Shown: one piece after another, positions 806 to 20,377 of the stretch
Layout: each line of letters begins with the position of its first letter
Position numbering within the stretch: position 1 is the stretch's first letter
NCBI GenBank assembly: GCA_022566355.1
Contig: JADFJB010000086.1
Coordinates: forward strand, 1-20,430
Length of the DNA: 20,430 nucleotides
Direction: 5' to 3'
Source of the DNA: a candidate division KSB1 bacterium
GTDB taxonomy: Bacteria; Zhuqueibacterota; JdFR-76; DREG01
Notes under the pieces: model-generated
Databases searched by the model: none
What the model was told of the DNA's origin: nothing
What the model saw: the letters and a program-made list of their open reading frames with translations, nothing else
Translations under genes and position numbers: made by a program

Positions 806-2047
806 CTAAATATTGTATTCTTGTGCAAAGTGAACTAACGCCTGTTCAAATATTTTCATTGGCGGCCGTACCAGTCCAGCCCCGATTTGACCGATACCCG
901 GTTCTTTATGCGCGATACCTGTGTTTACACGTGGACTTATACCTGTTTCAACCACCAACCGCAAATCGATGCCGGTAGGTGTCCCGCGAAAATCCAGGGG
1001 AGGAATAGTAAAATATTTATGTTCCCGGCAAGTGATTTCATACATTTCCAGAGTTGCGTTCAAGGCGTCTTGAGCCGAGCCACTTACAAAAGTTACGATT
1101 GCCGGAGCAGAAGCCATAGCGAATCCGCCAATACCTGCAGTCTCGGTTATTGTGCTGTCACCGATATCAGGGTTAGCGTCATCATCACCATAACCCGGGA
1201 AGTAGAGTCCCTTGGGAATCTGTGCCGGTGCGGTGAACCATCGATCACCCAATCCACTCACCCGAATGCCGAAATCCGTACCGTTCCGTGCCATTGTTGT
1301 AATTATTGTACTGCCATCAACGCCGTGGGCGGCATCTGCCATAACTTTACAGGCAGCCATTACCGGATTCAGGACACTTAAAGCATTGTCTCCAATTGTT
1401 TGCAGAACTTTGGCTGCGGTTTCACTGTCTTTGCACACTTTAACAACATGGGGCGCCAATGCCTTGAGGTAAAGAATGGATCCTGCTTTATTGCGGTTAT
1501 GTCCTTCATCGCCCATGTGCAGCGCCTCAGAGAGCAGCGCCTTTATATCGATACCTCCGGCTGACTGTATGGCATCATGCAATACCGGAGCCATAACATC
1601 CTCCAGCCATCTCAAACGAGTTTGGACCTCCTGGTCGTAGGCGCCATAACGCAAGACTTTTCCATAGCCCTCATTCAGATTAGAAAATGCACGATTACCA
1701 TAAGTTTTGTTTTCAATAATATAAACCGACATAGACGGCGAAGTAACACCTGCCATCGGTCCCACAGTTTGGTAGTGGTGGCATGGTTCAAGTTTAAATT
1801 CACCACTTTCGATGAGCACTTGCGCTTCCTGTTCATCTTTTGCTTTGTTTTCAAAGATAAGTGAACCGGTGATGGCTCCGCGCATGGGTCCCGAAGCTCG
1901 AGCCCAGGTAATTGGCGGTCCGGCATGCAGCAGCAGGTTATCCGCCATTCCCGGAATTACATCACGGGCTTTTCCCAAACCGGTTAGTACGGCTCGGGAT
2001 TCCATCATTTTTTCGGTGGCTTCGTTATTTGCTTTTTCAATATTCAT
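806..2047 (-). CDS. DUF1116 family protein (YlbE/AllG-like)
   Basis: A 413-residue protein of the DUF1116 family. In E. coli the family member YlbE (AllG) works with FdrA (AllF) and YlbF (AllH) in oxamate carbamoyl transfer during anaerobic allantoin use. Family-like blocks are visible: HMGDEGHNRNKA mid-protein, NPVMAACKVMADAA soon after, and near the end RVNTGIAHKEPGIGQIGAG. There is no signal peptide or membrane segment, so it is cytoplasmic. I choose the ATG at 2047 because GGAG sits six bases upstream; the frame also allows a TTG four codons earlier. It follows the fdrA homologue on the same strand after a 336-bp gap, much wider than usual for this operon. The family assignment is strong. 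The exact substrate (oxamate or another carbamoyl acceptor) is inferred from the E. coli case. Confidence 0.88.
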   Translation of the reverse strand: MNIEKANNEATEKMMESRAVLTGLGKARDVIPGMADNLLLHAGPPITWARASGPMRGAITGSLIFENKAKDEQEAQVLIESGEFKLEPCHHYQTVGPMAGVTSPSMSVYIIENKTYGNRAFSNLNEGYGKVLRYGAYDQEVQTRLRWLEDVMAPVLHDAIQSAGGIDIKALLSEALHMGDEGHNRNKAGSILYLKALAPHVVKVCKDSETAAKVLQTIGDNALSVLNPVMAACKVMADAAHGVDGSTIITTMARNGTDFGIRVSGLGDRWFTAPAQIPKGLYFPGYGDDDANPDIGDSTITETAGIGGFAMASAPAIVTFVSGSAQDALNATLEMYEITCREHKYFTIPPLDFRGTPTGIDLRLVVETGISPRVNTGIAHKEPGIGQIGAGLVRPPMKIFEQALVHFAQEYNI

Positions 2048-2064
2048 AAATGGCTCCAATTATT

Positions 2065-2146
2065 AACTTTGATTAAATGTTTCATCAGAAAAACAACTTT
2101 GATTTTGCGTCAAGTTTTTTTGCGATGAAATAAAATTACTTTGATT
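2065..2146. repeat. Three direct copies of ACTTTGATT ahead of the DUF1116 gene
   Basis: ACTTTGATT occurs at 2066-2074, 2096-2104 and 2138-2146; the first two share AACTTTGATT with 30-bp spacing. They lie 20-100 bp upstream of the ATG at 2047. A regulator-binding role is possible, but AT-rich drift could also give this. Confidence 0.3.
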
Positions 2147-2317
2147 TGAAATTCGAAATCCTAAAATCTAAACAATATCTAAAATTCCAATTTACAAAAT
2201 TAAAAACCGGGCAAAACTCATTTATTCTCTTCTGTAGGTTTCTTCGTTTTGTTTGGTGTATTTGGAATTGTATCTTTGTAATTTGTTTGGGATTTCGATA
2301 TTAGCATTTCGAGTTTA
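2144..2317. repeat. Degenerate AT-rich inverted repeat between fdrA and the DUF1116 gene
   Basis: A left arm (about 2144-2205, with GAAATTCGAAATCC and CTAAAATTCCAA) is echoed as reverse complement on the right (about 2258-2317, with TTTGGAATTG and GGGATTTCGA). The arms are diverged but run in the same order. The wording resembles the AATTCCGAAATC-type repeats at 7451-7828. With the ACTTTGATT copies it accounts for this 336-bp gap; I see no gene in it. Confidence 0.45.
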
Positions 2318-2383
2318 TAAAGCTTGTTTTTTTTGGCGGTTTGAGGAGAAGTTTCGCTAGTCTTTTATGTCTTTTTCTTTAGC

Positions 2384-4102
2384 CTATTTATTTTTCATCC
2401 GCTGCAGAATTGCTATTAAATCCTCATTGCCTCCCGCCGGTGGGCGCCAATCTACATGCACAACTGTTGCTGCTTGATTCTGAAGGCTCTCGGTGAACGA
2501 CATCAATCCGACATTGATGGCTTTCATCGGCTGCTCAAGAACAGTTAAATCAACTTCCGGATAAATTTCCGGAGGTGATAAACCCTGCAAACGCTCGCCG
2601 ACATATTTGGCTGCAGAACTAATATTAGTCTCAACATGTGCGCCGGCATCTTTTAATTGTTTCATTTGTGAGTTTATATCCTGGGGGTCCTCATCTGTGC
2701 CAACCAATACTATCACGAATTCTAACTCTCGTCCGGTATTTTTGGCGTTAGCGCGAGCCTTTTCAATAGCAGGAGATAATTCACCGGCAGGATCCGGGTG
2801 GGATCCATGACCCAGGACCACATCCAAAAGGATCATGGCAACCTCGGGATCGTTAGCTTCCTGAGAGAGACGTTCTAAACGAAGAGTATTATCCATCATT
2901 GGATGGGGGCGTCCGACTGTAAATTCATCTTCACCCAGATCGATGATCGTATGCTCTTTGCTTGTATTTGATTCCGGTAACTTGAATTCTTTCTTCAACG
3001 GAATATTAGAATATACAGCGGGTAAATAATTTTGCAGAATGAGCAATGTTTCATAAGCTAAGGTGCCACCGGAAAACAATCCCCGGACATAGCATTTCTG
3101 TGAAGTGAATTCAGCCCATTGAATTTGTTTAGATGAATCGGCATCGATCTTGGAATTAACAAGTTTAGTAGCTAGTTTTGCTGTTTCTTGCAAAGATGTT
3201 GCAAAGTGAATATTATTACCCATTTTTGCATCGGGGGGAATAATATGTCCGATGAAATTGATCACAACAGGTTTATTGATTTTCATAGCAGTTTGTAACA
3301 ATTTAGCGGCAATCTTTTCTGAAGGCGGTTTTGAGATGAGAACGATACTCTTTGTTTCGGGATCACGACTTAGTAGGTTAAGGGCCTGGAATGCGGTTAT
3401 GCCACCAACGTCCTTACTTAGATCTCTTCCTCCGGTTCCTATAGCATGAGTAATCCCGCTGCCCAATTGATGGATCGAGGCAGATACCTGCTGCAAACCG
3501 GTTCCTGAAGCTCCCACAAGTCCTATGGGTCCTTGCCTGATTTGATTGGCAAAGCCAAGGCCGACTCCATTGATAATCGCAGTTCCGCAATCCGGACCCA
3601 TAATCAATAAGCCCTGGCTTGCAGCCTCTTTCTTTAGAGAGAGTTCGTCTTTTACGGGAACATTGTCACTATATAGAAAGACATGTTTATGCATGCGAAG
3701 TGCTTGAAAAGCGACATCAGCAGCATATTGCCCAGGTACAGAAACAAGTACCCAATTTGCGCCTGGTAACATCTTGGCTGCTGCTCCGAGGCTTTTGGGT
3801 AAATAATTTTGATCTAAACTACCGCTTCGTTTAGATAGAAGTGGATCGATTTGACTTAATGCTGATTTGACGGCGGTTTGATCAAAACCCTTTACACTGA
3901 TTATGAGATCGTCAGCTTGAGCAGACTCAGCTTCGGCTGTTAATAGTCCGTTTTGCTTTAGTATGTCTTTGTTTATTGCAGTTCCCATCATTACGCCGAC
4001 ATTCACGATACCCGGTAGCGAATTAAGGGATGCTTGTAACTGCATTAGAACAACAGAATCATAATAAGCACCCCTGCGAATTTCTGTGATTGTTTCAGGC
4101 AT
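2384..4102 (-). CDS. fdrA: FdrA family protein (succinyl-CoA synthetase-like, AllF-type)
   Basis: A 572-residue protein related to succinyl-CoA synthetase. Residues about 1-110 are the FdrA-specific N-terminal part. A Rossmann CoA-binding-like domain follows, with GPDCGTA at 169-175 and the glycine-rich LVGASGTG at 195-202. A ligase-like domain holds DLGEDEFTVGRPHPMMD (388-404) and LGHGSHPDP (430-438). The C-terminal tail has INVGLMSF and VVHVDWRPPAGG (547-558), a block common in this family. E. coli FdrA (AllF) belongs to the complex reported to transfer a carbamoyl group in oxamate metabolism. The length is close to that of E. coli FdrA. The ATG at 4102 starts the conserved N-terminus, but its ribosome binding site is weak. 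It is the first gene of the group and is followed by the DUF1116 gene. Neither YlbF/AllH nor carbamate kinase is nearby. Confidence 0.9.
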   Translation of the reverse strand: MPETITEIRRGAYYDSVVLMQLQASLNSLPGIVNVGVMMGTAINKDILKQNGLLTAEAESAQADDLIISVKGFDQTAVKSALSQIDPLLSKRSGSLDQNYLPKSLGAAAKMLPGANWVLVSVPGQYAADVAFQALRMHKHVFLYSDNVPVKDELSLKKEAASQGLLIMGPDCGTAIINGVGLGFANQIRQGPIGLVGASGTGLQQVSASIHQLGSGITHAIGTGGRDLSKDVGGITAFQALNLLSRDPETKSIVLISKPPSEKIAAKLLQTAMKINKPVVINFIGHIIPPDAKMGNNIHFATSLQETAKLATKLVNSKIDADSSKQIQWAEFTSQKCYVRGLFSGGTLAYETLLILQNYLPAVYSNIPLKKEFKLPESNTSKEHTIIDLGEDEFTVGRPHPMMDNTLRLERLSQEANDPEVAMILLDVVLGHGSHPDPAGELSPAIEKARANAKNTGRELEFVIVLVGTDEDPQDINSQMKQLKDAGAHVETNISSAAKYVGERLQGLSPPEIYPEVDLTVLEQPMKAINVGLMSFTESLQNQAATVVHVDWRPPAGGNEDLIAILQRMKNK

Positions 4103-7844: not shown

Positions 7845-8216
7845 CTAAATGCTTTTAATTGGAAGTTGACGAACACGTATTTGGCTGTCAGTTACACTTA
7901 TAATCGCTCCTTGCTTGAGCGCTGAGGAGTGGTTAGTTACAATTTTTTTTAGCGTAGAATTAACATTATTTGGTTGCATATTTCTCAATCGAAAGATAAT
8001 CACACTTGGTAATTTTGCTTTACTAGCTGCAACCAATTCACTGAAATCAAGGTCATGGGTTAATAGGATGAAACCTTCATTTTTTGCCTTATTTAGAATT
8101 TCAGAATCCAGCATTTTATTTAATTTGAGAGCACTAAGATGGATAGATTCGAATCCAAGTGCAATTAAGAAGTCTACTGTTTTTGGGGAAATACCCATAT
8201 CTGCAAGAAATTTCAT
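7845..8216 (-). CDS. DUF5615 PIN-like protein, putative toxin
   Basis: A 123-residue PIN-like protein of the DUF5615 family, usually the toxin partner of a DUF433 protein. MKFLADMGISP opens the protein (the common form is LADENIS, so the usual Glu-Asn is Met-Gly here), and FILLTHDLDFSEL at about 50-62 holds the THDLDF motif with its acidic residues. These residues would bind metal in a PIN-type nuclease fold. The ATG overlaps the DUF433 stop as ATGA (8213-8216), a sign of coupled translation. RNase activity is inferred from the fold and has not been shown widely for the family. The altered N-terminal motif might weaken activity. Confidence 0.85.
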   Translation of the reverse strand: MKFLADMGISPKTVDFLIALGFESIHLSALKLNKMLDSEILNKAKNEGFILLTHDLDFSELVAASKAKLPSVIIFRLRNMQPNNVNSTLKKIVTNHSSALKQGAIISVTDSQIRVRQLPIKSI

Positions 8217-8449
8217 GCAGTAGCTTTTTCTAGTGGAAAAATTCCTTCATCTGTTAACCAGGCAGCATATTTCAACGACTCATAAATGTCTTCTGCTTCA
8301 AGGTATGGATAACTTTCCATAATCTTTTTGACAGTCATACCATTAGCTACCAAATTTACTATTAAGGAAACTGTTATTCTCATTCCCCTTATGCAAGCCC
8401 GTCCACTCATCACATTTGGATCAAAAGTTATCCGATCGAATCCTAACAT
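8213..8449 (-). CDS. DUF433 protein, putative antitoxin
   Basis: A 78-residue DUF433 protein, a small helix-turn-helix-like domain found as the upstream partner of DUF5615. FDRITFDPNVMSGRACIRG, then MRITVSLIVNLVANGMTVKK are family blocks. The C-terminal part (YLEAEDIYESLKYAAWLTD) is the helical dimer segment. I place the start at ATG 8449, which has GAGG five bases upstream; the frame is also open to a TTG at 8473, which adds eight residues without a clear Shine-Dalgarno sequence. The pair overlaps by four bases. It probably binds the toxin and the operon's own promoter region, where nested inverted repeats lie (8525-8606). Confidence 0.85.
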   Translation of the reverse strand: MLGFDRITFDPNVMSGRACIRGMRITVSLIVNLVANGMTVKKIMESYPYLEAEDIYESLKYAAWLTDEGIFPLEKATA

Positions 8450-8524
8450 TTTCGCCTCTAATTTTTTGAACAACCATTTACTAATTTTGCAATACGTTTA
8501 TAAACAAATTAACAAAATTATTTT

Positions 8525-8625: not shown

Positions 8626-10422
8626 TCAAAACCGATATGAAAACTGCCCTTCAAAACTTCTGTATGCATAGAAATTAGAGCCATAGTCATGATAGGAAAT
8701 TCTTAATAAAGAAAAATTATTCGGCTGCCAGATAAAGTTTGCCATCCAGTTATTGGCAGTTTCGTTGCCTGTCTGTTGAGTGAGGGAGTAACCTACTTTA
8801 GTTATGATTGTTTTCCCCAATTTAACCTGGACACTTGGGCCGAGTGATCGAGTCCAGAAATTTTTAGGTGTCCAATAAGGTTCGGATTCGGGGTAAAAAA
8901 GATTCATATCCTGGTAAGCATAAACTGCATTCAAAAATAGGGAAGGGTTTCCGGAAAAGAATCGATATTCAGATTCGATGTACAATTCCAGCTTTTGATT
9001 ATTATCAGAATACCAACTTTTCTGCACATCGCCACTGATTAATGTATTGGTGTTAGGCTTCCAATAAATATTTTGGCCGATTCTTTTTGCTTTTAACTTT
9101 TGTCTGATAGCCAAAGCTCCATCCAGTACTTGATTATATCTCGCATAAGTAGATGAAAATAATTGCCCCGGCCATCTACTTTTCTCTGAAAGAGTTTGTT
9201 GCAGTTGAAATTCAAACAATCCAAAGGTTTCTTCCTGGTCGAACCGAATATATCCCCCGGTGGTTACAAATCGCGTTTTCGGATGAACAAACCATGTCCC
9301 TCCCAATTTTAAACCTTGACCATAAGAAAACACTTTACCGACCGATTTTTTTTCTTCAAGTTGTCGATATATTGTCTCAGCTTGTAATTGCCACCGGGAA
9401 GTGACATATCTATTATGCAAAACCGAGACTTCGGTTAATTGTAGATTGTTTGAGTCATCCAAATATTTCAAAGACGAATTAAACAAAGGGCCATAATCTT
9501 GTCGAATTTCCAGGAGAAGTTTTGTGCTTTCCTGATGATAGGGATCAACAGACAAAATGTGTTCATATGATTTTTTCGCTTTCATCCATTGAAATGGTGT
9601 ATATTGACTAAGCTGAGCCAAGTAGAATCGCGCTTTTTGATTTTCAGGTTCGAGTTTTAGTACTTGCCTAAAACTAATCATTGCTTCAGACTGGCGGTCG
9701 CTCCACATGGCTGTCTCTCCAAGCAGGAAAAAAGCTTCGGCATTGGTTGAATCCCGTTTGATAATATTCTTAAACGCATCGATGGCTTCGTCATTTCTAT
9801 TTAATCCTTGTGCTTGAATTCCATGCTCTTTCCAAAGATTAAGATCGCCGGGATTTTTCCTCAGAATAACTTTCTGTAATGCGAAAGCCGCTTTGGGGCG
9901 TTCATTCCATTGGTATTGCTGGCTCAATTGCCGTATTGTGTTTAAATCACTTGGATCCAGAGTAACTGCCTTTTCATAGGCAAGCATCGCTTGTTCCGAT
10001 TGTTCATTCCATGAATAAATCTTCCCAAGTTGCAGCCAATACTCGCGTTTTTTCTCGTTTGTTTTGACTAATTCTTCGTAAACATCAATGGCTTTGATGG
10101 ATTGATCGGATTCGGTATAAAGTTCGGCCAATCTTTCTAATAACAGGGTTGAATTTTGGTGATGTTGCTTTTGTGTATCAAGTAAAAAAATTGCCTCGGG
10201 GTAAAAATTCTCTGCCTCGAGTAATTGACTTAATTCCAGCAAAGAATTAAGTGGTATGGATCCTGATTCCGCTAGAGCCCGAATTTTGGTTTTTGCCAGG
10301 CCAAACTCACCATTTTCAAATAATATCTTCACTGAACTATATTTATCATCTCCACTTGCAAAACTTACTGTCAAAGAAATGAACAGAAATATGATTCCAG
10401 AAATTTTGAAATATTGTTTCAT
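8626..10422 (-). CDS. TPR and outer-membrane beta-barrel protein (PelB-like exporter)
   Basis: A 598-residue protein with a signal peptide (hydrophobic IIFLFISLTVSFA at about 10-23), roughly seven TPR-type helical repeats to about residue 310, then a beta-rich region of about 280 residues with alternating hydrophobic strands, ending SFEGQFSYRF. The terminal Phe is typical of outer-membrane barrels. PelB of Pseudomonas also joins TPRs to a C-terminal barrel and exports Pel; YaiO-type barrels are the other similar family. As last gene of the Pel-like operon, directly after pelG, it is the likely export pore. It is much shorter than PelB (which has many more TPRs). I prefer ATG 10422, with GGAAAG just before it; an ATG four codons earlier (10434) is also possible. 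The stop codon overlaps a 16-nt match to the local repeat. Confidence 0.82.
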   Translation of the reverse strand: MKQYFKISGIIFLFISLTVSFASGDDKYSSVKILFENGEFGLAKTKIRALAESGSIPLNSLLELSQLLEAENFYPEAIFLLDTQKQHHQNSTLLLERLAELYTESDQSIKAIDVYEELVKTNEKKREYWLQLGKIYSWNEQSEQAMLAYEKAVTLDPSDLNTIRQLSQQYQWNERPKAAFALQKVILRKNPGDLNLWKEHGIQAQGLNRNDEAIDAFKNIIKRDSTNAEAFFLLGETAMWSDRQSEAMISFRQVLKLEPENQKARFYLAQLSQYTPFQWMKAKKSYEHILSVDPYHQESTKLLLEIRQDYGPLFNSSLKYLDDSNNLQLTEVSVLHNRYVTSRWQLQAETIYRQLEEKKSVGKVFSYGQGLKLGGTWFVHPKTRFVTTGGYIRFDQEETFGLFEFQLQQTLSEKSRWPGQLFSSTYARYNQVLDGALAIRQKLKAKRIGQNIYWKPNTNTLISGDVQKSWYSDNNQKLELYIESEYRFFSGNPSLFLNAVYAYQDMNLFYPESEPYWTPKNFWTRSLGPSVQVKLGKTIITKVGYSLTQQTGNETANNWMANFIWQPNNFSLLRISYHDYGSNFYAYRSFEGQFSYRF

Positions 10423-10436
10423 TTTTCTTTCCATAT

Positions 10437-11930
10437 TTATGAATTAATTTCTGGTTGTTTATTTTTTATTTTTGTTTCCTGTGAATCTTCATCAACTAAA
10501 ACCTTACTACTCCTGAACCTCCATTTATCATCAGTATTGATAACTGACTCAATGGGCTGGTTTGCGAAAATGTAAAAATCGATTCTTTTCATTGAATACA
10601 CTAAAAGCGGCCAGGAAATAGCAGTGGTTAATATTCCGGCGAGCAAAAATCCATACCCAAAATATTGGATTCCCAATTGAATTGAGATATATGTAAAAAT
10701 ACCGTTTAGTGCTGCAAACAAAATAGTAAGATACAAGGCTCTTTTTCTCATTTCATAATAGAGGAAAATGATATTAATATTCATATTAATTACATGAAAG
10801 AAAGCTCCAAGAAGTAAAACCCGAAATAGCCAAATCGAAACTCCGCGATAGCCCAGGAAAATAAGGAGTTGCTCAGCAAAAACAATCAGGAGTAGAGTGG
10901 TTATACTTTGTAATTTTAGCATTCCCCGCATACCCTCTTTGAGGGTAGTAATCATATCATTTTTCCGCTGTTTGACAATTAATAATGGCTGGCTAAGAAT
11001 GTCTTTCATAAAGGAAGAGTAAGCTTTGTAAAAATTGGTTTCTGTTAGTATTAAAAAATAAGCCATCGCCGGAATAATACTAAAAAAGCTCAAAAAATAG
11101 GGTACATCGTAATAGTTGTAGGTGAAGAAAAAAGAGGTTCCATTGGATTCCTCGAAATGATCCCAAAATAGAAATTTGTCTATCCATATGCCTATATTAA
11201 AAAAGAGTCCAATTAAGGCGATGATATAGTACTTTTTCAGATAGACAAAATATTCTTTACGCCAATATTGTTTTTTTTCTAATTCTACAGTGGTTATTCG
11301 GTATAGCAGTACAATGATTAAAAGTTGACCCGAACAGAAACCGGCCATCCCGCCTGCTACGGTGATCGAGGGGATTAATAGAAAAGAAACGAGTATACTG
11401 ACGATCGTTCCGAATAAATATGACCAGGTTACTTTTTGATATTCTTTTGTCGTGCCGACAAATCCCATTAATTGCCAAATGATGCATTGAAAAACAAAAG
11501 CAGCTATGCCAAATATTTTATATAAAAGTATGTTGCCTACCGGAGTCCAAACTTCCAATAAGACATAGAATGGGACAGCAAGCGCTAATGCCAATACCAT
11601 GACTAATACAGTGGAAGTAAAATATCCGGGATAAATATCCTTAAACTCTTTGATAAAATGTTTGTCTGCGACATATCTTGTGAATACCAGTTGAAAAGGG
11701 CCCGAGAGGATTAATGAAAACGCAAACGTGTAAACGATGGTTACAGAGAAAACTTGAAGTATACCCTGGTGAAACAGGCCATAGCTGATCCAGCCTATGA
11801 TCCCGATACATAATACTGTTAATATCATTGGACCAGCAGACAAAACAGAGCCAAACATAAAGGCCTGGATTGTAGAGACCAATGTGCCTTTTCGAATTAG
11901 CTTTTGTAACTCAAAGCCTATGCCAGCCAT
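10437..11930 (-). CDS. pelG: PelG, Pel exopolysaccharide membrane transporter
   Basis: A 497-residue inner-membrane protein opening MAGIGFELQKLIRKGT, the usual PelG N-terminus, followed by about twelve hydrophobic segments. PelG belongs to the MOP flippase-like superfamily and works with PelF, PelD and PelE at the inner membrane to make and move the polymer. A soluble stretch lies near residues 220-235 (VELEKKQYWRKEYF), and a charged cytoplasmic tail of about 45 residues ends the protein. The ATG lies inside the end of pelF (13-bp overlap), so the two are translationally coupled. Length and topology fit the family. Confidence 0.93.
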   Translation of the reverse strand: MAGIGFELQKLIRKGTLVSTIQAFMFGSVLSAGPMILTVLCIGIIGWISYGLFHQGILQVFSVTIVYTFAFSLILSGPFQLVFTRYVADKHFIKEFKDIYPGYFTSTVLVMVLALALAVPFYVLLEVWTPVGNILLYKIFGIAAFVFQCIIWQLMGFVGTTKEYQKVTWSYLFGTIVSILVSFLLIPSITVAGGMAGFCSGQLLIIVLLYRITTVELEKKQYWRKEYFVYLKKYYIIALIGLFFNIGIWIDKFLFWDHFEESNGTSFFFTYNYYDVPYFLSFFSIIPAMAYFLILTETNFYKAYSSFMKDILSQPLLIVKQRKNDMITTLKEGMRGMLKLQSITTLLLIVFAEQLLIFLGYRGVSIWLFRVLLLGAFFHVINMNINIIFLYYEMRKRALYLTILFAALNGIFTYISIQLGIQYFGYGFLLAGILTTAISWPLLVYSMKRIDFYIFANQPIESVINTDDKWRFRSSKVLVDEDSQETKIKNKQPEINS

Positions 11931-13345
11931 TTGGCTTTCTCCTGAACATTATATTGTTCATATATCTCTTCATAACGGTGAATAAGCCTGTCAAGATCAT
12001 AATCCAAAATAGCTCTTTCGCGACCTCGTTTAATACATTCCAATCGATATTTGGAATTATGTGCAAATTTCATCACGCCATCTGCCATATTCTCCGGACT
12101 TTTTGGCGGCACAACTATTCCATCATCTAACAAAATATCTTCGACATTACCAACCTTGGTTGCAACAATGGGTACACCTGCCATGAGAGATTCAATTAAG
12201 GCAAGCGGTTGAGCTTCCTTAATGCTTGATAAACAAAGAACATCTAAAATCGGGAAGAACTTTTTCACATCAACCTTTCCTGTAAATGTAACCGAATCTT
12301 TTAAATCCAGGTTCTGAACCAGAATCAACAGTTCTTTATAATACTCCGTTTGTTCTTCCTGTGGTCCAATTAAATAGAAATGGGCATCTTTAATTTGATC
12401 CTTTATGATTCGAGCAGCCATGATAAAACTCTTAACATCCTTGATGGCAACCATTCGACCTATGAAACCTACATTAAAACCCTTATGCTTGTGAGGTTGG
12501 ATGTCTTTGTATTGTTCAATGCGAATGCCGTTTGGAATAACTTCACAGCGGTCTTGCGGCGCCCCTAAATGGATTTGTAATTCCTGGTTTCTTTTGAATA
12601 AGGCAATAATTTTATCGGCATGGACATATGCAATCTGTGCCAGTGAATGAAACATTTTTTTCCACATTCGATTATTATAACCGGCATAATTTTTGGATTG
12701 ATTAATCTCAAGTTCACGTTCTTTGGCGTAAATGCCATGCTCGGTTAAAATGAATGGTTTGCCGGTATTGACTTTGGCGATAGCGCCCAACAAACCGGCA
12801 TAACCGGTAGAGACCGCATGGTAAATATCAGCATCCGGGATTTCAGCTTGAAACATTTTCAATAAAGGTAAATGGGTCGCTCGCCAGCTCCAGTAATAAT
12901 CTATAAAAGGCATGATGGGGTGGTTCTTGTTGTATTTTTCCGTAAGCAGTTCCCAACCTTGGAAATCTTTGAAAATATTCTCGAGCGATAAAGCATTTGG
13001 TTCATTTCTGGAAAATTGCTTGTAAAATTCTGCAAATTGACAGATTTCTCCATTTTCCATTTTGTCATGAAATTGGTGAATCGTCTTCCACTGTTTGTTG
13101 ACGTGATATCTTTTTGTATGGTTTTTTAGTTTGTTTTCTAACACAACTTCATGCATATCGACAACATTCTTTGGAAATTTAAATTTCGATGGTTGATTTT
13201 TTTTCGGTACAATCGTCCAAAGAACGAATTCCACTTCTGGGAGATTGGAAATTAATTGTTGCAACCAGATGGAGACTCCACCAAAGACGTAAGGATAAGC
13301 GCCCTCTATGATTGTGCAGACTCTAACTTTTCTATTCTTTGCCAT
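11918..13345 (-). CDS. pelF: PelF, GT4-type glycosyltransferase
   Basis: A 475-residue cytoplasmic GT-B glycosyltransferase of family GT4. The N-terminal VCTIIEGAYPYVFGGVSIWL (about 9-28) is the PelF hallmark. TEHGIYAKERELEI starts at residue 201; the donor-site GFIGRMVAIKDVKSF (293-307) carries Arg297 and Lys302; the EX7E motif is EAQPLALIE at 377-385. PelF polymerises the Pel backbone from UDP-activated sugars (in Pseudomonas mainly UDP-GalNAc). Its start overlaps the end of the DUF2194 gene by 14 bp and its end overlaps pelG by 13 bp. All the motifs are intact. The exact sugar here is unknown. Confidence 0.94.
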   Translation of the reverse strand: MAKNRKVRVCTIIEGAYPYVFGGVSIWLQQLISNLPEVEFVLWTIVPKKNQPSKFKFPKNVVDMHEVVLENKLKNHTKRYHVNKQWKTIHQFHDKMENGEICQFAEFYKQFSRNEPNALSLENIFKDFQGWELLTEKYNKNHPIMPFIDYYWSWRATHLPLLKMFQAEIPDADIYHAVSTGYAGLLGAIAKVNTGKPFILTEHGIYAKERELEINQSKNYAGYNNRMWKKMFHSLAQIAYVHADKIIALFKRNQELQIHLGAPQDRCEVIPNGIRIEQYKDIQPHKHKGFNVGFIGRMVAIKDVKSFIMAARIIKDQIKDAHFYLIGPQEEQTEYYKELLILVQNLDLKDSVTFTGKVDVKKFFPILDVLCLSSIKEAQPLALIESLMAGVPIVATKVGNVEDILLDDGIVVPPKSPENMADGVMKFAHNSKYRLECIKRGRERAILDYDLDRLIHRYEEIYEQYNVQEKAKWLA

Positions 13346-15617
13346 TTTTCTTTTTTTTACTCAAAATATAAGTTAACAGGTTGAATTTATTGGTACGCTC
13401 CAGTCTGATCTGAACTAATATGAAGCCAAAAACAGCAGCCAGAAAAATCCAGTACTTTGATTTCAAAAGCATATAGTTGATTGACGAACTTGGCTTCAAT
13501 ACAATTTTCCCTGAGTTTGTAATGAATGATTCAAATGAAAGGGTTCCATGCTCATCGCTTTTTAAATATTGAATTGTAGAATAGATGAACTCCTGTTGTG
13601 AAAAAGCGCTGGCCTGTTTATAACTGTTCGTTTGAGAATTTAGCGGTAACTTTTTAATTGAAAAGTAGGCATTCGGGCTAAGATTTTTTAAAGTAGCATG
13701 AAAATTACCATAACCACGTACATACAGGTATATTTCATTTCCCTGGGTTTCCAGGGAATCCACCAGTTGGTTGGCATAATTGAGATACGGAATGGTTTTA
13801 GTGGGTTCCCCAAAAACGAGTTTATGCTCTTTCCTGGCATTTAGATGGATCAACAAATCCCCTTTGTCTTTCGTAAAACCTATAACATTTTCAGATAAAG
13901 AAAGATTAACTTCTCTTATCTCGTTCTTAAATCGAATTGTCCGGAGATTTCCATCATTTAAGAAAACATACTCATTTTCATCTGCCTGGTAAATTTTTGT
14001 GTTAATAAAGTCTTTGACTGATTTTATATAATCGGAAGTATAAACAAAAGTTAGGTCTTGCTGTTCAGCCCATTTAAGAACCTGTCTTAGCGATTGCCAG
14101 CCTTCATTCCATTCAACGATGTATGGATGAAAATAAATATTTACAGGAGCCACCGGTCTGTGGCCACCGGTGAATTGAATCGATTTAATTACATTAGAGT
14201 AGCCATCATAAGGCCATTGCCAGCCATTGGTAAATTCAAATTCATTGCTAATTCTGGAATTAACTCTCATTTTGCTACCAACCTGGCCATAAGGGGGATA
14301 AAACGTACTGATCGATGGCCGTTCCAAATCCAATTTCCCAGCGCCGCCATTTATATGTAAGAAACCTTGATTCTCCAGAAGATCGATTTCTAATTGATTT
14401 GGATTGCACATCCCTGTCCAAAAAAAGAGTTTCACCGATTTTCCCGGTGGGACAAGGTTCTCCTGAATATATTTGATTGATCCTACAGTTTCAAGAGCCG
14501 GATCATAGCTATAAGAATCGACTTTCAAGGATAATTTTCCCGTCCTCCAATCATGTGGATGTGCGAAGCCATGACTAGCCGGTTCTACATTTGGAAGACG
14601 GAAGATTTCTCGTGCCGCTTCAAAGGTATCATTGTTTCCGTTATAGGCCGGACTAACATCAGCTACTATCACAGAAAATGAAAACGGAAATGCAAATTTG
14701 GTTAAGATTCGATTCTTGGTTAATTTTCCACAATTGTGCCATCGGTTGATCTTGGAGATTGTACTAAATCCATCACCATCTATGTGAATAAAAGCAGTCC
14801 GATAACCACAAGTTGTATTGATATCTGCAATGGGTAAATCATCACAGTGGAAAGCTTTATCGAAAAATTTAAAGGGATCGATGTACCATTGTGCATGGTA
14901 AGTTTTAGTATCAATTTTTGAAATAGCTCCTTGCTGAATATATCCACCATTTGGAGTTAAAATTGCGATATCACTCTTTTTATTATCTGCCGTTAAAGAT
15001 AAAAGGACTTGGTTTTGCGGATCAACAGAGATAATGTTTTCGATGGTTTCAGGTTTAAATTCAATGAATTTTGCCTCGTAATCATAAAACTGATCATTTT
15101 TAAAATCAATTTGTACATTTTGGTTTTTTAGCTGGTTGTAGTTATAGGTCAATCCGAAGTAATCACAAATTCTTTGAACTTCTTTATCATCCTTCTCAGT
15201 AGATGAAGCCCCTAACTCAAAGTGTGCTCCAAGATTACCCAGGATTACAACATATTTCCCGGATTGTAGCATTTCCATCAACCATTTTCTGTAACGTGCA
15301 GCCTCTCTCATTTCGGAGCTTCCAAACCAGGAAATAATGCCACGATAATCATTCATCTCATCCAGTGTCGGAAGATTCCCTTCGGCGTCTGAATAAGTGA
15401 CTACCAGGCCCAGGTTGTTAAGCGGTAGTTGTGCATTAAAATAAATATTGTTTTGTTGTTCCGAATTCCCTTCACTGGATTTGTACAACGCTAGAATTTT
15501 TCGAGGAATCAGATTCGATTGTGAAAATGCGCTGCCGGTAAAACCCAGGAACGCCAAAAACCAAACAAAAGTAGAGAAAATGTTTTGAATCTTAATTTCC
15601 CCAGTATAAATGTGCAT
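13332..15617 (-). CDS. DUF2194 polysaccharide deacetylase-like protein (PelA-like)
   Basis: A 761-residue secreted, membrane-anchored protein. A signal segment (about residues 14-32, FLAFLGFTGSAFS) is followed by a Rossmann-like domain (about 35-255), a deacetylase (NodB-like) domain (about 270-535), a beta-rich region, and one C-terminal membrane helix (about 720-738). Deacetylase signs are IHIDGDGF (Asp280 and Asp282) and SHGFAHPHDW, an HxxxH zinc site with His349 and His353. It takes the position and probable role of PelA's C-terminal deacetylase, and lacks the N-terminal glycoside hydrolase domain of Pseudomonas PelA. Partial deacetylation would make the polymer cationic. ATG 15617 has GAGG about six bases upstream; a TTG four codons earlier is possible. 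It overlaps the PelE-like gene and pelF. Confidence 0.85.
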   Translation of the reverse strand: MHIYTGEIKIQNIFSTFVWFLAFLGFTGSAFSQSNLIPRKILALYKSSEGNSEQQNNIYFNAQLPLNNLGLVVTYSDAEGNLPTLDEMNDYRGIISWFGSSEMREAARYRKWLMEMLQSGKYVVILGNLGAHFELGASSTEKDDKEVQRICDYFGLTYNYNQLKNQNVQIDFKNDQFYDYEAKFIEFKPETIENIISVDPQNQVLLSLTADNKKSDIAILTPNGGYIQQGAISKIDTKTYHAQWYIDPFKFFDKAFHCDDLPIADINTTCGYRTAFIHIDGDGFSTISKINRWHNCGKLTKNRILTKFAFPFSFSVIVADVSPAYNGNNDTFEAAREIFRLPNVEPASHGFAHPHDWRTGKLSLKVDSYSYDPALETVGSIKYIQENLVPPGKSVKLFFWTGMCNPNQLEIDLLENQGFLHINGGAGKLDLERPSISTFYPPYGQVGSKMRVNSRISNEFEFTNGWQWPYDGYSNVIKSIQFTGGHRPVAPVNIYFHPYIVEWNEGWQSLRQVLKWAEQQDLTFVYTSDYIKSVKDFINTKIYQADENEYVFLNDGNLRTIRFKNEIREVNLSLSENVIGFTKDKGDLLIHLNARKEHKLVFGEPTKTIPYLNYANQLVDSLETQGNEIYLYVRGYGNFHATLKNLSPNAYFSIKKLPLNSQTNSYKQASAFSQQEFIYSTIQYLKSDEHGTLSFESFITNSGKIVLKPSSSINYMLLKSKYWIFLAAVFGFILVQIRLERTNKFNLLTYILSKKKKNGKE

Positions 15618-16347
15618 AATATTCCTCAACCTGGTGGTGGTGTACCGGCATGGTTTTCATGATCTTTTTAACAAAATCGTATCGTCCTCGGAGAAAGTAG
15701 ATTTCAGCCATAACGATATAAGCCAATATCAAACTCTTATCATGACGTATCGCTTCTTTTAAATCCAATAGCGCCTGGGCATAATTCGATTTCAATTGAA
15801 AAGCCCAGCCACGATAGAGATTGTGGTTGGCATCATGGACGCCGTCATCAAAATTCTTATTTAATAACTCGATAGCTTTTTTTAAGAAGAAATTTCCCAG
15901 GACTTCACTGGTGACCAATAACCTGGTAAATTCGATATAGGTTTTGGCCAATTCGAATCGATTTCTATGATCGTTTTGGTCCTCTTCAAGAGCTTTTCGA
16001 AGCTTATGAATTCTCTTTTGCATTTCGTCTTCTAGTCGATCCAATTCTGAAGCCGTATACAAACGGACTTCTTCATCCTCATCTAATAACATGCCATGAA
16101 GCATTTGGATTGACAATGGTGTTCTACGTTCGGCAATTCTGCGGATCGCCTCTTTGCGAATATCCGGTTCAGGATCATGGACTGTATCCAGTAATGGCTC
16201 CATACCCAATGAGAATTCCACGTACTGACTGATATCAATCACTCCAAGCGCCAGTGCTTGCTTGGCTTCGCTTTGGTTTTCCGGCAGGAATCTAATATCA
16301 GATTGTGTCTGTTGTCGCTTAAGTTGTAGGTATCGTTCCCAATTCAT
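15592..16347 (-). CDS. HEAT/TPR repeat protein in PelE position
   Basis: A 251-residue all-helical soluble protein. Residues about 50-108 look like HEAT repeats (HDPEPDIRKEAIRRIAER, then LLDEDEEVRLYTASEL), a short charged coiled coil follows (105-123), and TPR-type helices fill about 128-235 (WAFQLKSNYAQALLDLKEAI is the clearest). It has no membrane segment. Pseudomonas PelE is a smaller protein with two membrane helices and TPRs that binds PelD; this one may do so without its own anchor. It starts with an ATGA overlap on the PelD-like gene and overlaps the start of the DUF2194 gene. Assignment as PelE-like rests mainly on gene order and the TPRs. A histidine run (PVHHHQVEE) near residue 236 is a curiosity. 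Confidence 0.72.
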   Translation of the reverse strand: MNWERYLQLKRQQTQSDIRFLPENQSEAKQALALGVIDISQYVEFSLGMEPLLDTVHDPEPDIRKEAIRRIAERRTPLSIQMLHGMLLDEDEEVRLYTASELDRLEDEMQKRIHKLRKALEEDQNDHRNRFELAKTYIEFTRLLVTSEVLGNFFLKKAIELLNKNFDDGVHDANHNLYRGWAFQLKSNYAQALLDLKEAIRHDKSLILAYIVMAEIYFLRGRYDFVKKIMKTMPVHHHQVEEYYAHLYWGN

Positions 16348-17804
16348 GATTTAGTGACTTTTTCTTCCTCAGATGTTACTTGTGTAGTTTTTGAATTTAG
16401 CTCAAGAGAATGATATGCAAGGTTGAGCATATCGCCGAATGATTTTATTGACGGGTGATATGTCGCAGCGCCAAATGAAAGTTTTATATATTTATTCCAA
16501 GTATTATCTACTCCGTCTTGCGTTTGAATTTTTTTAATTCTATCGATTACCGTTAAAAGGCCGTCGGTATTTGTAAATGGCAGAGACATGATAAACTCAC
16601 TGGAATGTTTACCGGTTGCTAAAATATCGACAGTTCTTAATAGGGTTTGGAACGTATGGCTTTGCCATTTTGCAGCTTCAACCCGAACTGCATGGCCAAG
16701 CTTTTGTTCAATTACTTCAAATCCGTCAACTTTAATGATTAAGATGGCAAATTCAAGCTTGTATCGTGCCGCTTTCGTAAATTCAACGTTTGCCATTGTT
16801 TCGAAGGAATCATATTTTGGTAAATTAGTGATCGGATCGATCTTGACCATATCCTGAAGATCCTGGTACTTTATGATGTTTTTGAGAGCCGGAACGGCAA
16901 GTTCGGCAATCATAGCTAAAATTCTAATCGTCGAAATATTCAATTTGAGAAATGGAATGTCATCGACGGTTAAAATTCCAACAATGACCGAACCCATGGA
17001 AATAGGCACATAAGCATAGGCTCTATTTTTAGATTTTTGCCAGGTATCAAATATTTTGTCATCATCAGAAATGTCTTTTATGGTCATGAGCTTATTTGAA
17101 TTGAGAATCATCCCGAAAATATCGGATTTCAGAGGCAGTTTCTGGTACACATCTTCTGAATCCTCATAACCGTACCTGGCTACTCGGATTATATTATCAT
17201 TTGGATAATCAATTACATAAAGTGAGACTTTTGTAGCCCCGGTGAACCGGGATGTTAGCTGGGTAAGTGATGAATAAAATTGTTTTTCATCTAAAGTTTC
17301 CAGTGATTTTGTTGCCTGGTACAAGGAGTGAACGGTCTCTTCTTGCCCAACAATTCGATTTTCTAGTTCCTCTTTTATAATTGTAATAATTTCCAGTTGC
17401 TCTTTTAATTTGCTGTTTTCTTTTTTCAGGTCCGAATTTTCTTTAACGATTGCCCGTTCAAAGCTTTTGTTAAATCCTCGCATTTCACCGACAATCAAAG
17501 CCGCAAGAAGGAATGAAACTAAAGATATCAGGAATGATGCTTCGGTGAGCATGGACCAGTTAAAGTACGGAGCGCTATCTAAATAGGCGTAGACAACCAG
17601 AATCAAGCCGGAAATGAAGGCAGCCACCAGGCCTTCCCATCGGCCAAATCGACTTGCTACGAGCAGCACTACAATTAAATAAGGATGGGGATTTAAGCCC
17701 TGAAAACCGGGTGAATCCGGAAACAGGAAAATATTCACGCTAATAATCAGCAGAAAAAAAGTCAAAAGACTAAAAGAAACATCTTTCAAATATCGGTAAT
17801 TCAT
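16344..17804 (-). CDS. pelD: PelD-like c-di-GMP receptor (membrane, GAF, degenerate GGDEF)
   Basis: A 486-residue inner-membrane protein. Three to four membrane helices fill residues 11-106, a long coiled coil spans 112-165, a GAF domain about 168-310, and a GGDEF-like domain about 322-465. The GGDEF signature is replaced by KHSSEF (399-404), so no cyclase activity is expected. The I-site motif RTVD (Arg390 to Asp393) just before it is kept. This is the design of Pseudomonas PelD, which binds c-di-GMP at its RxxD site and switches on Pel synthesis. ATG 17804 has TAGGAA upstream and lies ten bases after the STAS gene. It is followed by the PelE-like gene with an ATGA overlap. An alternative name would be a GAF/GGDEF sensor, but operon context favours PelD. 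Confidence 0.87.
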   Translation of the reverse strand: MNYRYLKDVSFSLLTFFLLIISVNIFLFPDSPGFQGLNPHPYLIVVLLVASRFGRWEGLVAAFISGLILVVYAYLDSAPYFNWSMLTEASFLISLVSFLLAALIVGEMRGFNKSFERAIVKENSDLKKENSKLKEQLEIITIIKEELENRIVGQEETVHSLYQATKSLETLDEKQFYSSLTQLTSRFTGATKVSLYVIDYPNDNIIRVARYGYEDSEDVYQKLPLKSDIFGMILNSNKLMTIKDISDDDKIFDTWQKSKNRAYAYVPISMGSVIVGILTVDDIPFLKLNISTIRILAMIAELAVPALKNIIKYQDLQDMVKIDPITNLPKYDSFETMANVEFTKAARYKLEFAILIIKVDGFEVIEQKLGHAVRVEAAKWQSHTFQTLLRTVDILATGKHSSEFIMSLPFTNTDGLLTVIDRIKKIQTQDGVDNTWNKYIKLSFGAATYHPSIKSFGDMLNLAYHSLELNSKTTQVTSEEEKVTKS

Positions 17805-17814
17805 GAATAGGTTC

Positions 17815-18654
17815 CTACTTTTGATAATCAGTCAGGAATAAAATGTCCTCGAATTCTTCAGTTAAAAAGGATGAAGAATTATTTGCTTCCTGAGGCGTCG
17901 TATTTTGAGTTGCAGCTTCCAGTTTATTAATTTGAATGTTTTGTTTTAAAGATTGGACAGCTAGTTTGGAATCGGAATACTGGGGAAATAGGTCTTCAAT
18001 GGAATACAATTTAAATAGTCGAGTGATGACACTATCCTGATAAACTAGGATTATTTTTTTATTATTTTTCCTGACAAATTTTTTGAGATGAATTAAACAA
18101 GCGATCCCGGTACTGTCAATATTACGAAGTTTATTGAAATCCAATATAGCAGCATTTCGTGTTGAGAGGTACTCCAATATTTTCTTTTTGAAAGCCTCAC
18201 TATTGGTGGCGATCAGTGAATCCGGTTGTTTAATTCTTACTATAGAAAAAGTGTCCGTATGTTTAACTTGCAGTTTGAGGGTAAATGGATGATCCTTTGA
18301 CCTGTCTGGTGCGGTTTTCTTTAAAGAACTAACCGCTTCTTCTAAAGAATTGAAAACTTCAAAAAACCGATGCAGCCTGGTAATTTGCAGCAATTTTTGA
18401 ATTTGCATACTTACATTGGTGAGTAATAATTTCCCATTCATGCTCAAAATTTTCTTTCGAATATGAATGAGTGTTGTTAATCCTGCGCTGTCGATATATT
18501 CTAAGTTTTCGAAGTTTAAGATTACCGTATTGGATGGTTCAACAGAACCCAAAACCTGGAACTTAAATTCTTCCAGGTTGGTTTGATTTAAACTGCAATT
18601 CCGCTTGAATTGTACAAATATGAATTCTTTTTTATGTTGAATATCCAGATGCAT
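17815..18654 (-). CDS. Tandem STAS-domain protein, first gene of the Pel-like operon
   Basis: A 279-residue cytoplasmic protein with two STAS domains (about 2-113 and 124-230) and an acidic, low-complexity tail. Both have the anti-anti-sigma signature: YIDSAGLTTL (Ser56) and NIDSTGIACL (Ser181), where the Ser is the usual phosphorylation site. Such proteins act in partner-switching with anti-sigma kinases, or as docking modules. No kinase or phosphatase gene is nearby. The gene is ten bases upstream of the pelD homologue, so a part in controlling Pel synthesis is likely but inferred. I choose ATG 18654, which starts directly before the first beta strand; the frame is open to a GTG at 18687. 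Neither has a strong ribosome binding site. A double-STAS protein is not part of the classic pel operon. Confidence 0.83.
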   Translation of the reverse strand: MHLDIQHKKEFIFVQFKRNCSLNQTNLEEFKFQVLGSVEPSNTVILNFENLEYIDSAGLTTLIHIRKKILSMNGKLLLTNVSMQIQKLLQITRLHRFFEVFNSLEEAVSSLKKTAPDRSKDHPFTLKLQVKHTDTFSIVRIKQPDSLIATNSEAFKKKILEYLSTRNAAILDFNKLRNIDSTGIACLIHLKKFVRKNNKKIILVYQDSVITRLFKLYSIEDLFPQYSDSKLAVQSLKQNIQINKLEAATQNTTPQEANNSSSFLTEEFEDILFLTDYQK

Positions 18655-18731
18655 ATAATCTTTAATATTTTGCGTTAAAAGAAGCACAAGCTAACTCATC
18701 AATTATCGGAATATCGTGCAGTATTCATTAA

Positions 18732-19599: not shown

Positions 19600-20007
19600 C
19601 TAGGATTGTATAATATTTAATATTTTTTTTGGGTGAACAATCTGAACATCTTTATAAGTTTTTGGAAAATGTTTTATATTCCTGGTGACTAAATAATCCG
19701 CGCTGGCTTCGATGGCTGCTGCCAGGACCTGGTTATCGTCAGGATCCGAACAGACATCTAATGTAAGCTTAGTATCCACAAGCTCGCAAGCAGCCGTGAG
19801 TTCAGCCACATGGCGATTTATTTCACTTTCCGTGAAAGGGTAATTCTTCCGGATGCGTGGATAATGGAGAACCTGCCAAACTTCAGACAATATAAATGGT
19901 GACAAATACAGTGTTTGCTTTTTAGATTGTTTTAAAACATTAGCGTCTTCCCCTTGAGGAGCTAGAAAAGCACTAATAAGGATATTAGAATCAAGGACAA
20001 CTTTCAT
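19600..20007 (-). CDS. PIN-domain toxin (VapC-like, COG1569 type)
   Basis: A 135-residue PIN-domain protein. MKVVLDSNILISAFL opens it with Asp6, LSEVWQVL gives Glu42, and CSDPDDNQVLAAAIEASADY gives Asp90/Asp91 and Asp104. These acidic residues form the Mg-binding site of PIN ribonucleases. The last position, RNIKHFP, has Asn where many VapC proteins have Asp, which is common in this subgroup. It is an RNA-cleaving toxin by family. It follows its antitoxin after 18 bases on the same strand and is followed by a strong terminator. The ATG at 20007 begins exactly at the first beta strand; the ribosome binding site is weak, as often for toxins. Confidence 0.9.
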   Translation of the reverse strand: MKVVLDSNILISAFLAPQGEDANVLKQSKKQTLYLSPFILSEVWQVLHYPRIRKNYPFTESEINRHVAELTAACELVDTKLTLDVCSDPDDNQVLAAAIEASADYLVTRNIKHFPKTYKDVQIVHPKKILNIIQS

Positions 20008-20025
20008 AGAAAGTGCTTGTTAATG

Positions 20026-20316
20026 TCATCTTTGACGAACGGCACGAATTGCTTCAGCTACGTCTTTATGAACTTGCTCCTCAGAGACATTCGGGTTCAA
20101 AGCGTGGACTTGTTTGAGATTCGCAAAAAGATTTTCCCATGCTTTTTCTTTGTTAGCCTTTGCCCTTTTAAGTACCTCTAAATCATCAAGAGAGAGTAGG
20201 ACAGCTCTTGGCTTGCCGTTCTCTTTAAGAATATATTGATCATCACTTTTAATAGACTTGAGAAGGTTTCGAAGTTTGGTATTGGTCAAGTCTTTAAGGT
20301 CGACATCTTTTACCAT
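20026..20316 (-). CDS. Phd/YefM-type antitoxin
   Basis: A 96-residue antitoxin. Its N-terminal half (DLTNTKLRNLLKSIKSDDQY, then ILKENGKPRAVLLSLDDLEVL) is the Phd/YefM DNA-binding fold, and the C-terminal half (VSEEQVHKDVAEAIRAVRQ) is the toxin-binding tail. It covers the PIN toxin and represses the operon. I choose ATG 20316. The frame is open to a GTG at 20373, but the promoter at 20378-20406 puts the transcript start at about that GTG, leaving no room for a leader; an ATG at 20349 is the other option. It overlaps no other gene and precedes the PIN toxin by 18 bases. Confidence 0.85.
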   Translation of the reverse strand: MVKDVDLKDLTNTKLRNLLKSIKSDDQYILKENGKPRAVLLSLDDLEVLKRAKANKEKAWENLFANLKQVHALNPNVSEEQVHKDVAEAIRAVRQR

Positions 20317-20340
20317 TTTGGACCGCCGTGGTTTTAATCT

Positions 20341-20357
20341 AATTAACATAATTAATT
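20341..20357. promoter_or_regulatory. AATTAA/TTAATT inverted repeat in the antitoxin leader
   Basis: AATTAA (20341-20346) and TTAATT (20352-20357) flank five bases, between the promoter and ATG 20316. The place suits an autoregulatory operator, but the arms are short and AT-only. Confidence 0.3.
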
Positions 20358-20377
20358 GAGTTACTATTAACACTTTT

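Follow-up and report, generated by a model that had tools for sequence, protein, structure and literature searches.

A probable third lineage of Pel-type exopolysaccharide operons in a candidate division KSB1 bacterium and its relatives

Organization of the operon

The window, i.e., the whole stretch of DNA analysed, is 20,430 nucleotides long and comes from a KSB1 contig (JADFJB010000086.1). Positions 8626-18687 of its minus strand carry seven genes on the same strand in the order STAS, PelD, PelE, PelA, PelF, PelG, and TPR protein. Neighbouring genes overlap by up to 38 bases or lie at most 10 bases apart, which agrees with the sequence-only reading of seven overlapping or near-touching genes. 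That reading placed the edge of the STAS gene at the ATG at 18654; a GTG start extends it to 18687. The following features were identified:

17815-18687 (-): protein with two STAS domains, 290 aa long if GTG is the start and 279 aa if it is the ATG at 18654
16344-17804 (-): PelD with an N-terminal membrane segment, GAF, and degenerate GGDEF (PF00990 2.6e-11; GAF_2; PelD HMM 444 bits)
16626-16637 (-): RxxD c-di-GMP inhibitory site of PelD, RTVD (motif; kept in KSB1 relatives)
15592-16347 (-): PelE, HEAT + TPR solenoid without transmembrane helices (PF13646 1.4e-8; PF14559 9.4e-7; hydrophobicity comparison)
13332-15629 (-): PelA deacetylase, CE21-type, no hydrolase domain (PDB 9cgy 1.5e-42; AlphaFold2; Foldseek 9cgy 1.4e-44)
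14769-14786 (-): HIDGDG catalytic motif of PelA (MT1/CM1), corresponding to H526, D528, and D530 in P. aeruginosa (PMC12022489)
13395-13484 (-): 30-residue helix near the C-terminus of PelA (residues 716-745), predicted to anchor it in the membrane; a Lys-rich tail follows
11918-13345 (-): PelF, GT4 polymerase (NF038011 2e-99, score 334)
10437-11930 (-): PelG, inner-membrane exporter (PF16933 1.5e-113)
8626-10434 (-): TPR exporter protein, whole gene
9505-10344 (-): TPR part of the exporter, covering residues 31-310 with about 18 helices (AlphaFold2 pLDDT about 88; TPR Pfam matches)
8626-9504 (-): beta domain at the C-terminus of the exporter (residues 311-602), a putative outer-membrane barrel with the aromatic residue F at its end

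The assignments of PelF and PelG are secure. Profile searches over the operon proteins, which had been proposed as a check, matched both to curated models far above the cut-off; for PelF, the NCBIfam score of 334 bits stands against a cut-off of 100, and DUF3492 was matched as well (3.7e-79).

Gene order in related genomes

Two kinds of pel locus can be distinguished in the phylum, here the KSB1/Calditrichota group. Type 1 (L022-L026) begins with a PelA that has no hydrolase; a GH114 gene (PF03537) and a PelB of about 1109 aa come next, and D, E, F, and G complete the locus. The window, L029, L032/L047, and the partial contigs L030 and L031 make up type 2, in which STAS precedes D-E-A-F-G and the TPR-barrel gene comes last. 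STAS-D-E-A-F-G is also kept in the genomes G023 and G011 of family f9, and the STAS gene occupies the same position in L029, L047/L032, L034, and L035. The D-E-A-F-G order noted earlier for this diderm Pel-type operon thus recurs in related genomes, and since the order is the same there, the seven-gene arrangement is not a chance run.

Inspection of the surveyed non-KSB1 diderm loci with a detected deacetylase revealed none in which the deacetylase lies between E and F. Proteins of about 650 aa (635-684 aa) found between PelE and PelF in L081, L085, L086, L089, L096, L098, L101, and L112 were considered as PelA and rejected, as they have neither deacetylase motifs nor a signal peptide; they look like cytoplasmic repeat proteins and not like parallels of the D-E-A-F-G arrangement. 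In the pel loci of Fusobacteriota (L039:12418-15436, L040, L088), the order is D-A-E-F-G, PelG is 703-909 aa in length, and it is followed by a conserved protein of 305-328 aa, which has no Pfam match in L039, where it was tested.

PelA deacetylase

PelA (765 aa) matched no deacetylase model of Pfam or NCBIfam. Its residues 39-601 align with residues 253-813 of the 9cgy chain, the solved PelA of Pseudomonas thermotolerans, and since the alignment starts only at residue 253, the hydrolase domain is missing from the window protein. The AlphaFold2 model (pLDDT 82.6, pTM 0.83) confirmed the PelA fold: in the Foldseek search, the matches next to 9cgy were at 1e-5. The protein consists of a signal peptide, a Rossmann-like domain, the deacetylase, beta domains, and a C-terminal membrane helix, which is seen in the model as a helix of 30 residues. 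Judging by its sequence, PelA keeps the H-x-D-G-D and SHxxxH motifs and the MT5 His of a metal-triad deacetylase; residues D284, D286, H353, H357, and H501 are invariant among nine relatives. The residues named in Pseudomonas PelA as metal triad, catalytic acid, and catalytic base (PMC12022489) all have their counterparts among these.

The label of DUF2194 deacetylase given to this protein from the sequence alone was wrong: PF09960 (DUF2194) matches neither the protein nor anything else in the source genome, which is 98.5% complete, and the enzyme is a CE21-type PelA deacetylase instead. A comparison of PelA proteins indicated two families. The Pseudomonas type includes all KSB1 type 1 and type 2 proteins and the canonical loci, whereas the DUF2194 type includes Gram-positives, Fusobacteria, two Spirochaete-like loci, and KSB1 type 3. 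Pseudomonas PelA belongs to CE21 (PMC12022489), and PelADA of B. cereus, the characterised Gram-positive enzyme, founded CE26 (PMC13254593).

All six KSB1 type-2 PelA proteins have a C-terminal membrane helix (hydropathy 1.6-2.4), while the C-terminal hydropathy of the other CE21-type PelA tested does not exceed 0.92, with the exception of L116 (1.45). Apparently, the window PelA is anchored in the membrane by this helix. In PelADA of B. cereus, the tether is a helix at the N-terminus, for which binding to PelG has been proposed (PMC13254593). Tethers at opposite ends of different deacetylase families suggest a possible convergent coupling of deacetylation to export.

Hydrolase and PelC

GH114 is the Pel hydrolase family, and the hydrolase is tied to Pel in most systems. 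The window contains neither a hydrolase domain nor a PelC-like lipoprotein, as noted earlier, and no GH114 remnant was found upstream of its STAS gene. In two same-order relatives, L029 and L032/L047, a GH114 gene lies just before the STAS gene; its retention there indicates that the lack of a hydrolase in the window is local. The sole GH114 match in the source genome is partial and unlinked (G000 contig 14, L046:6820-7857). This 345-aa, lipoprotein-like frame matches positions 36-119 of the 231-position profile and is possibly a permuted or truncated hydrolase. Across the phylum, the PelC profile gave weak, mostly partial, generic matches in larger frames and no PelC candidate; the best match in the source genome lies inside a 342-aa frame.

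PelD, PelE, and the STAS protein

PelD has lost the GGDEF motif and keeps the RxxD I-site, which reads RNVD, RSMD, or REID in KSB1 relatives of the same type. The site is lost in Spirochaetota (L049-L053, L087) and in the canonical-type KSB1 loci L023 and L026, which suggests, as far as the motif tells, c-di-GMP-independent control there. Apart from PelD, three strong GGDEF matches were found in the source genome, and c-di-GMP can therefore probably be made in this organism.

PelE contains HEAT/TPR repeats and is related to other PelE proteins by HMM. No membrane helix is present in any of the 14 PelE of KSB1 type 2 and Spirochaetota, in which the maximal mean hydropathy over 19 residues is 1.0-1.7, whereas all 26 PelE from outside this clade have one (at least 2.0).

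The STAS protein matches PF01740 in two stretches (5.2e-30), and the DSxG serine is kept in both domains (DSAG and DSTG). SpoIIE phosphatases are the usual partners of STAS switches, and about 22 SpoIIE phosphatase hits were found in the source genome. Given both the serines and these hits, partner-switch control through the STAS protein is plausible.

TPR exporter

The last gene encodes a protein that starts with a signal-peptide-like segment and is about half the length of PelB. Its TPRs are certain. The AlphaFold2 model of the beta part (residues 311-602), built from a two-sequence alignment, is of low confidence (pLDDT about 30). Several features are consistent with an outer-membrane barrel, which we infer for this domain: hydrophobicity alternates in 35% of its ten-residue windows (13% in shuffled sequences, sd 4%; 5% in the TPR part), the C-terminus is conserved up to the terminal F or W in 11 homologues, and there is a weak match to PgaA_barrel (0.0011), below the Pfam cut-off. 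According to hhalign, the barrel profiles of type-1 PelB, Spirochaete, and proteobacterial proteins do not align with it, but the TPR-then-beta layout is alike. PgaA, the PNAG exporter, and BcsC also combine TPRs with a C-terminal barrel, but they have other synthase and deacetylase partners.

The TPR exporter gene is conserved after PelG in five genomes. In family f9, PelG of G023 is followed by an SMC-like gene, and no close homologue of the TPR-barrel protein exists in that genome; the contigs of G011 and G050 end (that of G011 in PelG), and no close homologue was found there. The sequence-only reading of a TPR/beta-barrel gene closing the operon therefore stands as regards the TPRs and the 3' position, including its retention at the locus in relatives, while the evidence for the barrel is indirect and G023 has no close homologue of the gene.

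Across the phylum, a profile search revealed six further homologues of the exporter (1e-74 to 1e-41). Among the loci read, four have a DUF2194-type gene immediately before the homologue; thus, the exporter pairs with either deacetylase family. Judging by these neighbourhoods, the phylum has a second kind of Pel-like locus, which contains DUF2194 and uses the same exporter family. The best resolved locus of this kind is L144:10179-17606 with L139:1616-9805 (G019 contig 147); others are L138, L141, and L143. L144 and L139 together contain two PelF-like GTs, an epimerase-like gene, a divergent PelG-like gene, a DUF2194 lipoprotein-like deacetylase, and a TPR-barrel, along with regulators (SpoIIE phosphatase, response regulator, and a GAF-HD-STAS protein).

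Phylogeny of PelF and PelG

On the PelF tree (95 rows), three clades can be noted: KSB1 type 2 with Spirochaetota (SH-aLRT 98), the canonical diderm loci including KSB1 type 1 (SH-aLRT 99), and Bacillota/Actinomycetota/Fusobacteriota (SH-aLRT 100). The PelG tree agrees on KSB1 type 2 with Spirochaetota and on the Gram-positive/Fusobacteriota clades. Both trees place the locus within Pel, and since the TPR-barrel gene is present in relatives, neither of the two results named beforehand as refuting the sequence-only reading was obtained. In a 54-row PelF set, a single branch (97) already sets type 2 plus Spirochaetota apart; a tree constrained to join type 2 with Gram-positives/Fusobacteria was rejected (p-AU 0.0042), as was one joining it with KSB1 type 1 (p-AU 0.0007). 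The trees are quick and midpoint-rooted, the tested groups were chosen once a first tree had been seen, and the ancestry of the gene order is left undecided by them.

The pel-like loci of Spirochaetota (L049-L056, L087) are the nearest outside KSB1 in the PelF/PelG phylogeny and share PelE without membrane helices. They differ in having D-E-F-G and a large TPR gene (1240-1678 aa), mostly divergently transcribed, a DUF2194-type deacetylase in L052 and L061, PelD that has lost RxxD, and no STAS gene that could be found.

Pel has been described in two forms, Gram-negative and Gram-positive. Taken together, sequence comparison and phylogeny make it likely that the window contains a genuine Pel-type operon belonging to a third lineage composed of KSB1 and Spirochaetota. 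In the open literature, as far as it was covered, no description of a third-lineage Pel or of the architecture of this operon was found, although pel loci in which pelB is split or rearranged have been described (PMC7112194).

Comparison with known systems and alternative explanations

The D-E-A-F-G order, the membrane-anchored deacetylase-only PelA, and the degenerate-GGDEF PelD with a c-di-GMP site are all shared with the Gram-positive pelDEADAFG operon of B. cereus ATCC 10987 (PMC7112168, PMC13254593). The operon could accordingly be an evolutionary intermediate, or a Gram-positive operon taken up by a diderm that added an outer-membrane exporter. We consider this very improbable: the PelF clade that it implies was rejected, with PelG in agreement; the Gram-positive deacetylase is CE26 (DUF2194 in the relatives tested) and is anchored at the N-terminus (PMC13254593); PelE has membrane helices in all sampled Gram-positives; the A gene sits elsewhere in other diderm loci; and there is no outer-membrane exporter in the Gram-positive system. 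Since the A gene is CE21 here and DUF2194/CE26 in Gram-positives, the shared order is no evidence of an intermediate and, on these comparisons, does not mark kinship with Gram-positive Pel. The suggestion of an "intermediate or independent form" of the machinery is thus better kept in its second half. The operon might also be a rearranged canonical pelABCDEFG of the phylum, with a shortened pelB now at its end, pelA transferred to a place between E and F, and pelC lost. The canonical-type loci of the phylum (L022-L026, L075) indeed have a related PelA of the same CE21 family without hydrolase, a separate GH114 lipoprotein, PelB, and no PelC at the locus. Their order is, however, A-GH114-B-D-E-F-G, their PelB is about 1109 aa long, their PelA has no C-terminal membrane helix, and their PelF/PelG fall in the canonical clade, the forced union with type 2 being rejected in favour of Spirochaetota. 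No alignment was obtained between type-1 and type-2 barrels, although outer-membrane barrels diverge fast. On balance, such a rearrangement seems improbable.

A Pel-like machine making a polymer other than Pel, which is partially deacetylated alpha-1,4-GalNAc, is an unlikely explanation, though less so than the two above. The identity of PelF outside the close KSB1 relatives is at most 42-48%, the operon has no epimerase gene, and the exporter family is common to another, divergent Pel-like locus. On the other hand, every catalytic residue of PelA and the I-site of PelD are kept, and a GH114 gene adjoins the STAS gene in two same-order relatives, all of which speaks for Pel. With Pseudomonas pelABCDEFG (PMC12022489, PMC12141448), the operon of the window shares PelD, PelF, PelG, the CE21 deacetylase, and the logic of a TPR-barrel exporter. 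The Pseudomonas system differs in its gene order, a PelA with the hydrolase domain and no C-terminal tether, a PelE with membrane helices, a PelC ring, and a PelB that is about 1200 aa long and carries a membrane helix at its N-terminus. In P. aeruginosa, this PelB helix is probably uncleaved, and the TPR scaffold exceeds 20 nm and is accompanied by the PelC ring (PMC12141448).

Proposed mechanism

The whole operon probably encodes a c-di-GMP-controlled machine of the third Pel lineage for synthesis and export of a Pel-type exopolysaccharide. By homology, PelF would polymerise a nucleotide sugar, the substrate of known Pel being UDP-GalNAc. PelF would be switched on by c-di-GMP at the RxxD site of membrane-bound PelD, and the soluble PelE may link PelD to PelF on the cytoplasmic face of the membrane. 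The chain would then cross the inner membrane through PelG. The CE21 deacetylase, held at the inner membrane by its C-terminal helix, would remove acetyl groups from the emerging chain, which implies a putative coupling of PelA to PelG. The resulting cationic chain would pass the periplasm and the outer membrane via the short TPR-barrel protein, with no PelC ring involved. For the double STAS protein, a role as a phospho-switched regulator, acting on PelD or PelF, is probable.

More tentatively, and with somewhat less than even confidence, these features can be combined into a third, independently organised class of diderm Pel secretion, in which the tethered deacetylase passes the chain straight from PelG to a short TPR-barrel that has no need of a PelC ring, a soluble PelE takes the place of the membrane form, a STAS phospho-switch adds to the control by c-di-GMP, and the exporter is a module in common with a second Pel-like machine of the phylum.

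The third clade indicates which parts of the machinery may be dispensable, namely PelC, the long TPR scaffold, the membrane helices of PelE, and the fused hydrolase. It offers natural tests of two questions: what makes the PelC ring necessary in P. aeruginosa, and by what means synthesis, deacetylation, and export are coupled. It is also a warning that kinship can be misread from gene order alone.

Other genes of the window

Toxin-antitoxin-like pairs are located on both flanks of the operon, at 7845-8473 and 19600-20373 (-), and are represented by DUF433/DUF5615 and PhdYeFM/PIN_3, respectively. Further away, at 806-4102 (-), the gene of AllG, an oxamate carbamoyltransferase subunit (PF06545 1.8e-97), adjoins a CoA-ligase-domain gene resembling FdrA.
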